Below, piece after piece: positions 1,292-6,006 of a stretch of DNA of 60,521 nt. Made by a program: the position numbers and the translations under genes. How positions within the stretch are numbered: position 1 is the first letter of the stretch; every line of letters starts with the position of its first letter. The DNA lies in NCBI GenBank assembly GCA_018653605.1, contig JABHYY010000034.1:1-60521 (forward strand), in the 5' to 3' direction. The stretch is from an archaeon. GTDB lineage: Archaea > Nanobdellota > Nanobdellia > SCGC-AAA011-G17 > GW2011-AR17. The notes under the pieces are model-generated. The model did not search any database and was not told where the DNA came from. It was given only the letters and a program-made list of their open reading frames with translations.

Positions 1292-1308
1292 GTGTTTTAC
1301 TTTCTTAT

Positions 1309-1392
1309 GCCGGGATGGCACAATCTGGTACTGCGCAGGCCTGGAAAGCCTGTTTCCGTATGGATATCTGGGTTCGAATCCCAGTCCCGGCG
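1309..1392 (+). tRNA. tRNA-Ser (GGA)
   Basis: The 7-bp acceptor stem GCCGGGA/TCCCGGC closes the gene. The anticodon stem CAGGC/GCCTG holds the loop CTGGAAA, anticodon GGA. A long variable arm follows (class II, as expected for Ser), and the T arm contains GGTTCGAATCC. The discriminator base is G, as is typical of tRNA-Ser. CCA is not encoded and no intron is seen. Confidence 0.95.
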
Positions 1393-1414
1393 TATATACT
1401 CTTCTTGCAGAAAC

Positions 1415-1444: not shown

Positions 1445-2917
1445 ATGGGAAATAAACTTGAAGTTCTAACTATTGGTGGTGGCCCTGTTGCTGAATTGAT
1501 GAATGCTACTCTAAAAGGTAAGACTGCTGGTTGGTCTGTTTTTGATGATAAATTAGAACAATTAAGGTTACATGGTACTCATCTTGTTAATGGTCCTAAA
1601 GTAAGACAAGGTTTAACTCCTCCTTTTTATGAAAGAGTTATTCTTGGTGATGGTATGAATTTTAATCCAGAAAATCCTCTCAGTGGTGGCTTTAATGTTT
1701 ATCCTACTTCTTATGGTGGTCCATTGAGTCCAAACATTGAACTTGTTGATGATCCACTAATTATTCTTGCTGTAAAATCACCTGATAATGAAAAAAGCCT
1801 TAGGCAGGTTGCACCTCTTTTAGCTCGTGCAGAAGATCCAACTATTCTTTTGGCACAAAATGGTTTTGCTCCTGAGGTTGGAATTACTGAATGGTTAACT
1901 AGAGAAGGTTTAGATCATGTTAATGTTGTAAGGAGTGTTGCTATGGGTCCTGTTACTCAAAAAGTTGATGGTAATGACAAACCTTATTTGGATAATAATA
2001 TTTTTGCATTAAAATTGGGACATTGGGATGCTGGTGAAGGTCATGATGAACTTTGTAGGAAAGTTGCTGGAATGTTTTCTTATATTCCTGTAGAAGTTCC
2101 AGGTGATCAATTTAGAAAAGAGGGTTCAGAGAAAGCACTTGTTAATTTAATCAATCCTATTACTGTACTTTTTGCTAATACAATTGGACAAGGTCTTGAT
2201 TCATATTTGATTAGACAATTCTATAAGGCTACTGCTGGTGAAGGAATTCAATGTTTGTTAAAACAAGATGTTGGTATAGATCCACTTCATGCACTTGACA
2301 TTGCTTGGTTGATGTATAATTCTGCAAGACCTCATATGGCTTCAATGGGAAATGATCCTATGGGCCAATATTTAAGTGGAGGAAAGTTACCTTTTCCTCT
2401 TGGAACTGAAGTAGGTGATTTATCTGGTCAGGTTGTTGAGTGGGGTAAAGAGTATGGTGTAAATACTTTTTGGAATAGTTTCCTTCTTGAAATGATATCT
2501 GATTTTACTGATAGTTATAATGAAATTAAAAATCAAGATCCTTCTAAGGCTGTTGACTTTGGAATGAGGTTTGCTCATAGAAATAGATGGCTTGTTGGGT
2601 TTACTGAGGATGAAACTTATAATCTTTCTCAGTATGGTTCTCAATTGGCAAGGTTAGACAGATTATTTAGAGAGCAATTCCCTCAAGATAGATCTTCACC
2701 TCAGTCAGTTTATCTTTGTCCTCATATTGTTGATGAGAGTACAGAGTTGAGTAATTTGCCTTCTCTGTTAGTTGCTTCTTATAGAGCTTTGAAAGAAGAG
2801 TATAGTGAAAGAGGGTTGTTAGATGATTCTAATTTTGAGCTAAGTCAAGAAGTTTGTACTCAGGCTGATGCTTGTAGAAATTTAGAAAGAAGAGCGTGTT
2901 ATGATCTGCGAGGATAA
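1445..2917 (+). CDS. Ketopantoate-reductase-like (PanE/ApbA superfamily) dehydrogenase
   Basis: A probable NAD(P)H-dependent 2-oxoacid reductase. An N-terminal Rossmann motif (IGGGPVAEL) is followed by LLAQNGFAPE, like the family's LQNG-x-E segment, and by a C-terminal helical domain with NLINPITVL and a SMGNDPMGQYLSGG...TEVGDLSGQVV stretch matching the family's S-M-x-x-D...E-x-x-x-x-x-G signature. It is 490 residues, far longer than about 300 for PanE, because of an insertion near residues 45-90 and a C-terminal extension of about 100. It leads an operon: the next ATG is 2 bases after its stop. Some PanE relatives reduce 2-oxoacids to (R)-2-hydroxyacids, which would suit the ligase and dehydratase downstream. 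The substrate is unknown. Confidence 0.72.
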   Translation: MGNKLEVLTIGGGPVAELMNATLKGKTAGWSVFDDKLEQLRLHGTHLVNGPKVRQGLTPPFYERVILGDGMNFNPENPLSGGFNVYPTSYGGPLSPNIELVDDPLIILAVKSPDNEKSLRQVAPLLARAEDPTILLAQNGFAPEVGITEWLTREGLDHVNVVRSVAMGPVTQKVDGNDKPYLDNNIFALKLGHWDAGEGHDELCRKVAGMFSYIPVEVPGDQFRKEGSEKALVNLINPITVLFANTIGQGLDSYLIRQFYKATAGEGIQCLLKQDVGIDPLHALDIAWLMYNSARPHMASMGNDPMGQYLSGGKLPFPLGTEVGDLSGQVVEWGKEYGVNTFWNSFLLEMISDFTDSYNEIKNQDPSKAVDFGMRFAHRNRWLVGFTEDETYNLSQYGSQLARLDRLFREQFPQDRSSPQSVYLCPHIVDESTELSNLPSLLVASYRALKEEYSERGLLDDSNFELSQEVCTQADACRNLERRACYDLRG

Positions 2918-2919
2918 AA

Positions 2920-4740
2920 ATGACATTAGATGAAGTTCTGGGAATGAATGTTGCTGAGGTTATTGAGCATCATGGTACAACTGAAGGTTTTAGGGATAGA
3001 GTTTTTTTAACTTTTAGAGATGATGCAGGTGAGTTACAACAAGTTACTTTTGAAGATTATTTTCAAAGATCAGTTGAGTATGGTGCAATGTTTTCTGAAA
3101 TGAAGGTTGAGCAGAATGTTTTGGATGGGCAAAGATTTCATGTTGGAACTTTTATGCAGAACACTCCTGAATTTCTTTATGCTTTTGGTGGTTGTGCTTT
3201 TAGTGGTTCTACTTTAGTTGGAATAAATTCTTCACAAGTTGGTGAGGGTCTTGCTTTTGATATTAAAAATATTGGTTTAAATGTTTTGATTGCTGATAAT
3301 GTTGCTCAGGAACCTAAAAAATCCCCTAAAACTTTTTTGGAAAATGTTTTGGATACTGAAGACTTATGGAAAGATTCCTTAGGTTATGAAAGTATTCTTG
3401 CTAGGGATAGGCAAGTTAAGAATCATCCTATTGATATTCTTGATGTTGGTATGGAGATTGAAAATATTGCTGATGAGGTTGATGCTTTTGAACCTAGAGA
3501 ATTAAATCCTGATTCTCCAGGTGTTATAATTTTTACTTCAGGTACTACTGGTGCTCCAAAAGGTATTGAAGTTAGTTGGGATAAGTTGGTTGATGTTGGT
3601 GTTACTGCTACAAATATTTTAGATTATACTGAAGATGATGTTGGTTATGTTTGTATGCCTTTGAATCATTCTAATTCACTTTACTTGAATGTTATGCCTG
3701 CTTTGTTGCATGGCGCAAATTTATTTTTAAGAAGAAAGTTTAGTTCAAGTCAGTTTGCTTCTGATGTTGCTGAACATAGTTGTACAATTTTTAATTCTGT
3801 TGGTGATCCTGTTCAGTATGTTTTGAACAAAGAAGGTGATGCTGATCATTCTAGTTCTTCTTTGAGAGCTGTTATTAGTACTGGAACAAATGCTGTTAAT
3901 AGAGCTAAGTTTGCTGAAATGTTTGGTTTATCATTTGTTGAAATTTATGGTTCAACTGAGGTTGGTGCTTTAACAATGGTTGATGCAAATACTCCTGATT
4001 GGAGTGTTGGTAAACTTTTGAAGGATGTTAGGATTTTAGGTGAGAAAGGTATTTGTGATCTTGCTGATATTGTTGATGATAGAATTACTAATCTGAAAAA
4101 GAGTGCTGGTGAAGTTATTGTTTCAATGGAAAGTTTAGGTGCTTCTGCTTTTAGTGGTTATTTTAATTTGCCTGAAGTTAGTGTTGAAAGGTTGATTGAA
4201 ATTGATGGTGAAGAGTTTTATCGAATGGGTGACTTAGGTGCTATTGCTGATGTTGATGGTGTTAAGTATTTGAATTTTTTAGGTAGAACTGGTGATTGGA
4301 TTAGGTATAAAGGTGAAAACTTTGCTCCTATTGATGTTGAAAAAGTTTTAGATGGTTTGGATGGTGTTGTTAACTCTGCTGTTATTGGTGTTCCTCAAAC
4401 TGAGGGGAAAGAAGATGATCCTATGTATGTTTTAGAAGTTACTGAGGGTTTTGATATTAATGATTTTTTAGAAGTTTGTAGAGATAGGTTAGCTCACTAT
4501 CAACAACCTAAGTTTGTTAAGATTGTTAGTAGTTTGCCTATGACTGGTACAATGAAAGTTCAGAAAGGTCCTTTGAAAGAAGATTTCTATGACCCTTCTA
4601 GAGAGGGTCAAGTTTATCATGTAATTGGTCCTGCTGCCTGGGATTTTGGTGAAATGGATTTTGAAGTTGCATTAGCTCAGTGTGAAGATCCTTCTGATCA
4701 AGATAGGTTATCTGTTTATGTTGGGAGAGATTTGTTTTAA
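2920..4740 (+). CDS. AMP-forming acyl-CoA synthetase (FATP/FadD6-like)
   Basis: An adenylate-forming enzyme that should activate a carboxylic acid to its CoA thioester. Visible motifs: FTSGTTGAPKG (phosphate loop, about residue 204), YGSTE (about 341), RMGDLG (about 434), GRTGDWIRYKGENF (about 453, hinge and Arg), and TGTMKVQK (about 540) with the C-terminal catalytic Lys. The last two resemble the fatty-acid-transport-protein branch more than acetyl-CoA synthetase. At 606 residues it is full length. It lies 2 bases after the dehydrogenase and its stop abuts the next start codon, so the three proteins are probably made together. The substrate cannot be read from sequence; a hydroxyacid is the operon-based guess. 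Confidence 0.88.
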   Translation: MTLDEVLGMNVAEVIEHHGTTEGFRDRVFLTFRDDAGELQQVTFEDYFQRSVEYGAMFSEMKVEQNVLDGQRFHVGTFMQNTPEFLYAFGGCAFSGSTLVGINSSQVGEGLAFDIKNIGLNVLIADNVAQEPKKSPKTFLENVLDTEDLWKDSLGYESILARDRQVKNHPIDILDVGMEIENIADEVDAFEPRELNPDSPGVIIFTSGTTGAPKGIEVSWDKLVDVGVTATNILDYTEDDVGYVCMPLNHSNSLYLNVMPALLHGANLFLRRKFSSSQFASDVAEHSCTIFNSVGDPVQYVLNKEGDADHSSSSLRAVISTGTNAVNRAKFAEMFGLSFVEIYGSTEVGALTMVDANTPDWSVGKLLKDVRILGEKGICDLADIVDDRITNLKKSAGEVIVSMESLGASAFSGYFNLPEVSVERLIEIDGEEFYRMGDLGAIADVDGVKYLNFLGRTGDWIRYKGENFAPIDVEKVLDGLDGVVNSAVIGVPQTEGKEDDPMYVLEVTEGFDINDFLEVCRDRLAHYQQPKFVKIVSSLPMTGTMKVQKGPLKEDFYDPSREGQVYHVIGPAAWDFGEMDFEVALAQCEDPSDQDRLSVYVGRDLF

Positions 4741-6006
4741 ATGGGTTTGTTTGAAAGAGTACAAGGAAGTTCTTTGACTAAACTAAGAGGAGAATTTATG
4801 AGAGGCCATTATGCTGCTGCTAATAAAGCTAAGTCTGCTGGGGTGCCTATTGTTTTTGTAACTGCAACTTATCCTGCTGAAATTGTTAGAGCTTTTTCAC
4901 CTGATGTGTTTATGGTTTATCCTGAAAATCATGCTGCTCTTTTGAATGCAAGACATTTGACTGATGACTTATCTGCTGTTGCTGAAGCTGAAGTTGGGTT
5001 AACTCCAATGGATTGTTCTTATGAATTGGCTAATATTGGTTATTTGTTAGAGAAAAGGAATGGAAAAGATTTTGGTAAGAAGATTCCTGTTTTACCTGAA
5101 CCTGATGTTTTGCTTTCTTGTAATAGTCAGTGTGATGTTGTTTGTCATTGGTATGATACTTTGCAAAGTTTAGTTCCTGGTTCTGTTGCTCAAGCAATTA
5201 ATGTTTTTGATAGGTTTGATGGACAGATTACTCCAGAGAGAGTGGCTATTGTTAAAGATCAAATTTTGGATGCTATTTATTTGTTAGAAAGGCAGAGTGG
5301 GAAAAAATTGGATAGAGATAAACTTTTTGATGTTGCTGATAAATCTAATCAAGCTGTTAGGTTGTGGAGAGAGTATCTTGCATTTGGTAAGGAACAACCA
5401 TCTCCTGTTACTAGTTTTGAAGGTTTTTTGAACATGGCTCTTATTGTTTCTGAAAGAGGGACTCAACAAGCTATTGATTATTATCAACAATTGGTGGATG
5501 AAACTCAAGGAAAAGTTGATAGAGGTGAATCTGTGTTAGGTGAAGAGAGAAGAAGATTGTTATGGGATAATTTAGCAATGTGGCACAGAGATGGTTTATG
5601 GGATTTGAGTGATACTTTAGAAGGTGAAGGTTATGCTCTTGTTGGTTCAAATTATTTGGATGTTTGGCAAAGGGAATTAGATACTTCTAGTTTTGATGGT
5701 TTATTAGATAGCATGGCTGCTGCTTATTGTAGAATGTATACAAATTTAACTCTTGGTCAAAGGATTGATAGTTGGGATAAAATGGTTACTGATTATAATG
5801 CTGATGGAATTTTGTTCCATGCGAATCGAAGTTGTGTCACTTTTTCACGACAGCAAGAAGTTGTTGCTAAAGGTGTTGAAGCAAAGCAAGAAGAAAGGGG
5901 TAATAAAGTTCATGGTATTGTGTTTGAGGGTGATATGGGTAGAAGAGGAATTTTTAATCCTGATAGGTTAAGTTTATTATTGCAACAAAAGTTTGAAGAA
6001 AGTTAA
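4741..6006 (+). CDS. 2-hydroxyacyl-CoA dehydratase / benzoyl-CoA reductase-family subunit (HgdB/BcrB-like)
   Basis: Member of the oxygen-sensitive HGD-D family, whose subunits bind a [4Fe-4S] cluster and carry out radical dehydration of 2-hydroxyacyl-CoA or aromatic ring reduction. Likely ligand cysteines are present: C92 (MDCSYELANIG), C127/C131/C135 in the CNSQCDVVC stretch, and C365 in HANRSC. At 421 residues it is the usual subunit length. The ATG directly follows the ligase stop. Family enzymes normally need a second subunit and an ATP-dependent activator (HgdC/BcrA type); neither is in this window. The operon implies 2-oxoacid to 2-hydroxyacid to CoA ester to enoyl-CoA, which is inference. 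Confidence 0.82.
   Translation: MGLFERVQGSSLTKLRGEFMRGHYAAANKAKSAGVPIVFVTATYPAEIVRAFSPDVFMVYPENHAALLNARHLTDDLSAVAEAEVGLTPMDCSYELANIGYLLEKRNGKDFGKKIPVLPEPDVLLSCNSQCDVVCHWYDTLQSLVPGSVAQAINVFDRFDGQITPERVAIVKDQILDAIYLLERQSGKKLDRDKLFDVADKSNQAVRLWREYLAFGKEQPSPVTSFEGFLNMALIVSERGTQQAIDYYQQLVDETQGKVDRGESVLGEERRRLLWDNLAMWHRDGLWDLSDTLEGEGYALVGSNYLDVWQRELDTSSFDGLLDSMAAAYCRMYTNLTLGQRIDSWDKMVTDYNADGILFHANRSCVTFSRQQEVVAKGVEAKQEERGNKVHGIVFEGDMGRRGIFNPDRLSLLLQQKFEES

Follow-up and report, generated by a model that had tools for sequence, protein, structure and literature searches.

A ligase-coupled, possibly activator-free branch of the BCR/HAD family in a woesearchaeal three-gene operon and in Desulfobacterota

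The archaeal contig analysed here (the window, 60,521 nucleotides) contains an operon of three genes encoding a PanE-like reductase (P1), an acyl-CoA ligase (P2), and a BCR/HAD-family protein (P3). The best view of P3 is that it represents a new branch of this family that is ligase-coupled and lacks an activator, and whose chemistry we infer. That this branch works as a single subunit with no activator, receives its substrate directly from a dedicated CoA ligase, and either removes the 2-hydroxyl group of a 2-hydroxyacyl-CoA or alters it, with no ATP-driven electron activation, in both DPANN archaea and Desulfobacterota has, in our estimate, close to an even chance of being correct, though it falls short of one.

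The three genes are intact open reading frames on the + strand: P1, a PanE/ApbA-family reductase of 490 codons (1445..2917); P2, a FATP-type AMP-forming ligase of 606 codons (2920..4740); and P3, a HadB-type (alpha) BCR/HAD-family protein of 421 codons (4741..6006). The coordinates, the common strand and the intergenic gaps of 2 and 0 bases bear out the tight operon described in an earlier note on this DNA. The trio is directly preceded by purA and a tRNA-Ser (GGA) gene (1308..1393, + strand; ARAGORN and Rfam), the latter forming the operon boundary immediately 5′ of P1. The adenylosuccinate synthetase encoded at 132–1268, upstream of the tRNA, has only 378 residues and scores above its family cut-off. 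The arrangement is not a product of chance, since a member of another Woesearchaeota family (Candidatus Woesearchaeota SI039_bin115, denoted G065; a draft of 8 contigs, 97% complete) has orthologues that are 42, 52, and 48% identical to P1, P2, and P3, in the identical order and with gaps of 8 and 1 bases. The check for the trio in other DPANN genomes that the earlier note proposed therefore finds it conserved in one other Woesearchaeota family. The G065 locus lies on a 58,268-base contig, which is one and the same under the locus labels L021 and L032.

Contamination was considered and rejected for both copies: the window contig encodes PheRS, a thermosome and a proteasome subunit, and CDC48 adjoins the G065 trio. 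A mobile or viral origin was also rejected, as P1 has no relatives in plasmids or phages, neither P1 nor P3 has relatives in viral contigs, and P3 matches in plasmids are all about 27% identical or less. A gene for a tyrosine recombinase of the phage integrase family is present in the middle of the contig (30842–31663). There is strong strand asymmetry across the window, the third codon positions of most long + strand genes being T-rich and those of most − strand genes A-rich. Base composition proved uninformative as a sign of recent transfer, because T-rich third positions also occur in other + strand genes of the contig.

P1 is predicted to be an NAD(P)-dependent 2-oxoacid reductase of the PanE/ApbA family with a ketopantoate-reductase fold, but it is not assignable by score to ketopantoate reductase proper, as it falls below the TIGR00745 ketopantoate-reductase cut-off. 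The PanE-type dehydrogenase assignment made previously is upheld by an ApbA_C match above the gathering cut-off (E 2e-7; ApbA_N is just under its cut-off) and by residues K111, N139, K230, N234, S300, and E322, which align with a bacterial PanE and form a KPR-type set whose catalytic roles are presumably those of ketopantoate reductase. P1 shares these residues with ketopantoate reductase and the PanE-type D-2-hydroxyacid dehydrogenases, but departs from both in its weak family scores and in a C-terminal extension of ~130 residues. Three cysteines (Cys425, Cys471, and Cys477) are conserved in this extension in both known copies, those of the window and G065, and possibly form a metal or Fe-S site. 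The sole PDB match, to 3wfi, is non-significant (E 0.33), and the predicted model, made from an alignment of only two sequences, has a pLDDT of 38. P1 is present in two of 371 genomes of the phylum, namely the window genome and G065, and is absent from the bacteria that carry the P2–P3 pair.

P2 has both domains of a FATP/SLC27-type AMP-forming acyl-CoA ligase, with matches above the gathering cut-offs to AMP-binding (PF00501, E 3e-42) and AMP-binding_C (PF13193), and FATP2 is its closest relative among solved chains; the FATP-type CoA ligase proposed earlier is thus well founded. P2 is itself the single PF00501 match in each of the two archaeal genomes, as determined by family search, and it is 46–52% identical across all loci of the P3 clade.

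P3 matches HGD-D (PF06050) with an E value of 4e-45, above the gathering cut-off, and among NCBIfam models it scores best with HadB (E 3.5e-61). It also matches PDB 3o3m_A (E 3e-43 by sequence and 1.7e-66 by profile), the structure of HadB, which is the alpha subunit of the dehydratase for (R)-2-hydroxyisocaproyl-CoA. An AF2 model of P3 (pLDDT 85, pTM 0.86) superimposes on 3o3m chain A with TM scores of 0.87/0.92 and an rmsd of 2.3, compared with a TM score of 0.68 for the beta chain, and on 8s02 with a TM score of 0.81, so that the protein has the HGD-D domain and the two-domain HadB/BzdO fold. The designation of P3 as an HgdB-like Fe-S protein therefore stands as regards the HGD-D family and the cluster cysteines, but should be read as HadB-like, or alpha-like, in view of the best NCBIfam model and the best structural match.

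The active site of P3 is partly conserved and partly distinctive. Three cysteines predicted to ligate an open-site [4Fe-4S] cluster (C92, C131, and C365) are invariant across the seven intact proteins of the clade as well as 38 further relatives; loss of the cluster cysteine in relatives, which the earlier note had held to count against the proposed function, is not seen in any of the seven. They correspond by alignment to C84, C117, and C346 of HadB (positions counted from the profile alignment) and to the BzdO cluster ligands C95, C128, and C380 (PMC11971306). The catalytic glutamate (E62, equivalent to BzdO Glu65) is likewise kept in all seven, and Y94 and Y305, also retained in the clade, stand where BzdO has tyrosines holding the oxygen of the thioester. 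Several substitutions set the clade apart. Position 42, corresponding to HadB Ser37, is alanine in 7/7 members and serine in 28 of the 38 relatives, HadB included; in BzdO the equivalent Ser44 hydrogen-bonds the catalytic glutamate. Next to one ligand cysteine an Ala-Arg pair is replaced by Glu-Leu (95–96, with arginine giving way to L96), next to another the lysine at 366 is replaced by His or Val, and the aspartate present in all 38 other family members is Asn at position 154. Because the ligands, glutamate, and tyrosines are kept, yet these substitutions are fixed throughout the clade, the function of P3 has probably been kept but changed. The substitutions may influence the use of an activator, and they may mean a different chemistry.

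The window genome (a 961 kb draft in 42 contigs, 93.1% complete) contains one HGD-D protein, P3 itself, and G065 similarly contains one HGD-D protein and one AMP-binding enzyme; these and the other genome-wide statements of presence and absence rest on family searches. None of the 17 other genomes in the family of the window genome has an HGD-D protein, and in the 371-genome phylum sample four genomes encode HGD-D proteins that cover the domain. Two genomes of the same class, G087 and G327 (loci L022 and L023), carry a classical HGD-D pair with an activator and were used as positive controls. The G087 activator and part of its second HGD-D protein lie in a single open frame of 562 codons. No HgdC/BcrA-type activator was found in the window genome, in which the only PF01869 match (18.9 bits, below the cut-off) is a 320-residue protein that we read as Kae1-like, and G065 has no PF01869 match in a search that gives strong matches in both controls. 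Neither archaeal genome has a second HGD-D (beta) subunit by family search. Having one HGD-D protein each and no HgdC/BcrA activator, the two archaeal genomes give no support to a canonical radical dehydration driven by ATP activation, and the earlier note had itself named the absence of an activator from complete genomes with the trio as evidence against this function. An acyl-CoA dehydrogenase (PF00441) that could use an enoyl-CoA is also missing from both genomes, which counts against a net dehydration in the archaea.

Screening 84,980 species genomes with a P3 alignment identified, in addition to G065, five Desulfobacterota-type MAGs with close relatives (44–51% identity), and a phylum-wide P3 search added a further genome (G716), bringing the bacterial carriers to six Desulfobacterota genomes, all without P1. 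The clade is sharply bounded, since scores in the phylum-wide search fall from above 700 bits in two of 395 genomes to 290 bits for the best of the remaining matches. In all eight clade loci, spanning two domains of life, a P2 orthologue lies directly 5′ of P3. At one bacterial locus (L030) P2 and P3 have a four-base overlap (ATGA), and at another (L031:4832-8215) they lie within one open reading frame, a possible natural fusion, with a ribosome-binding-like stretch and an ATG preceding P3. Two bacterial copies are disrupted: at L034:3276-6178 a DDE transposase gene (3672–5009) interrupts the HadB-like gene, and at L029:5117-6993 the coding sequence of the ligase falls into two frames, with the break near 5760, through either a frameshift or an assembly error. 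Beta-subunit and activator profiles built in this analysis were applied to the locus neighbourhoods, and neither part was found near the pair at any of the eight loci (0/8 for each); more distant HadB-like control loci have a beta subunit alongside in 9/9 cases and an activator in 8/9. As the bacterial carriers hold several PF01869 activator matches elsewhere in their genomes, the genome-wide absence of an activator speaks from the archaeal genomes only.

The bacterial neighbourhoods also bear on the substrate. A D-2-hydroxyacid dehydrogenase gene lies 17 bases downstream of P3 at L034, and at L030 and L031 a TPP enzyme resembling acetolactate synthase and 2-hydroxyacyl-CoA lyase, although scoring under every family cut-off, is located upstream of the pair with an SDR and a second ligase. 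With the PanE-type P1 of the archaea, three types of enzyme from unrelated families that make or use 2-hydroxyacids or 2-hydroxyacyl-CoA adjoin the pair in different lineages, and it is mainly for this reason that the gene context points to 2-hydroxyacids as the substrate class. The conserved core is P2 and P3, and the hydroxyacid-making enzyme varies by lineage. FabH and a hydrolase are encoded near the pair at L033. An Ole-type (olefin) pathway drawn from the FabH, hydrolase, and SDR neighbours was rejected, as the FabH is a true match to its model and the SDR scores far under the OleD cut-off.

The seven intact P3 proteins form one clade with 100/100 support. The window copy is sister to the other six and has a long branch, whereas the G065 protein groups with a Desulfobacteraceae copy and not with that of the window. 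This grouping, together with the patchy distribution, suggests repeated transfer between DPANN archaea and Desulfobacterota, in either direction.

The trio could thus constitute a self-contained 2-hydroxyacid module. P1 would reduce a 2-oxoacid to the 2-hydroxyacid, and P2 would form its CoA thioester and pass this to P3. At its open iron site P3 would bind this 2-hydroxyacyl-CoA and alter C2, most likely with a 2-enoyl-CoA as the product after net loss of the 2-hydroxyl. P3 would act with neither a dedicated beta subunit nor an HgdC/BcrA-type ATP-driven activator. We hold this complete sequence of steps tentatively, as somewhat likelier to fail than to hold. The three-step route put forward earlier, from 2-oxoacid through 2-hydroxyacid and CoA thioester to enoyl-CoA, is plausible in outline given the enzyme families and the 2-hydroxyacid neighbours, but not as a canonical activator-driven dehydration.

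The closest known parallel is the LdhA-HadA-HadI-HadBC route of (R)-2-hydroxyisocaproyl-CoA dehydration in Clostridioides difficile. The order of logic is alike, with a 2-oxoacid reductase, CoA activation, and a HadB-type [4Fe-4S] alpha protein, and P3 shares with HadB its fold and the equivalent ligand cysteines and glutamate. However, the trio has a CoA ligase rather than a CoA-transferase, a PanE-family reductase rather than LdhA, and no counterpart of HadC or of the HadI activator, and P3 is only ~30% identical to HadB with an active-site signature of its own. P3 also resembles the class I benzoyl-CoA reductase subunits BzdO and MbdO (8s02 and 9g87) in fold (TM ~0.8) and in the equivalent cysteines and glutamate (PMC11971306), although its sequence is nearer to HadB; BzdO works with BzdN and the ATP-driven BzdPQ pair, and P3 has neither. 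A literature search found no prior description of a P2–P3 system.

Net dehydration is the first choice because the fold, cluster, and glutamate of P3 are those of HadB. The established radical mechanism of the family needs an ATP-activated electron, and a true dehydration without an activator has no known precedent. The main rival is that P3 has left radical dehydration and that its open-site [4Fe-4S] cluster acts on the acyl-AMP or acyl-CoA product of P2 by non-redox chemistry, such as a Lewis-acid epimerisation or elimination, or a sulfur transfer as in TudS. We consider this unlikely, though a serious contender, as the electron-activating machinery is missing both at every pair locus and in the two archaeal genomes, and TudS shows that the family is adaptable. 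The clade-wide replacements near the cluster and the catalytic glutamate, and the lack of a PF00441 enzyme for an enoyl-CoA product, are consistent with it. TudS is not known to require an ATP-driven activator. TudS is a desulfidase of the BCR/HAD family described as sulfur-transferring rather than radical-generating (PMC11971306), but it consists of one domain, whereas P3 retains the whole HadB alpha fold with its two domains, and both tyrosine positions for thioester binding. Furthermore, the neighbouring genes encode 2-hydroxyacid enzymes and not sulfur enzymes, and no particular non-redox reaction is positively indicated.

It is less probable still that P3 is an ordinary HAD alpha subunit, perhaps a homodimer, whose activator and partner act in trans, having been missed (through MAG gaps or a divergent ATPase) or being supplied by a host. 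The intact ligand cysteines and glutamate would fit such a role, as would the PF01869 matches elsewhere in the bacterial carriers and the 93% and 97% completeness of the archaeal genomes. Against it, both parts would have to be lost to two independent gaps in both archaeal genomes, which is improbable; the alpha, beta, and activator genes sit together in the control loci; and the Arg and Lys usual in the family beside the cluster cysteines are lost throughout the clade. A P3 that has lost catalysis, or that is in decay and simply travels with the ligase, is very improbable, for despite the transposase-split P3 and the frameshifted P2 in two bacteria, the window P3 is 47–51% identical to other clade members and all ligands and the glutamate are kept in 7/7 intact proteins.

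Returning to the activator-less, ligase-coupled branch, characterised BCR/HAD enzymes with alpha-type subunits need both a partner subunit and an ATP-driven activator, and a clade that keeps the catalytic cluster and lacks both parts raises the question of whether the hardest step of the family can proceed, or be replaced, when no ATP-driven activation is available. With only two or three genes, which can be expressed, and archaeal carriers that have no other AMP-forming ligase, the system should have a traceable role. Its carriers are two tiny archaea that are only distantly related to each other and a handful of bacteria of the sulfate-reducer type, in which P3 may use a new chemistry.
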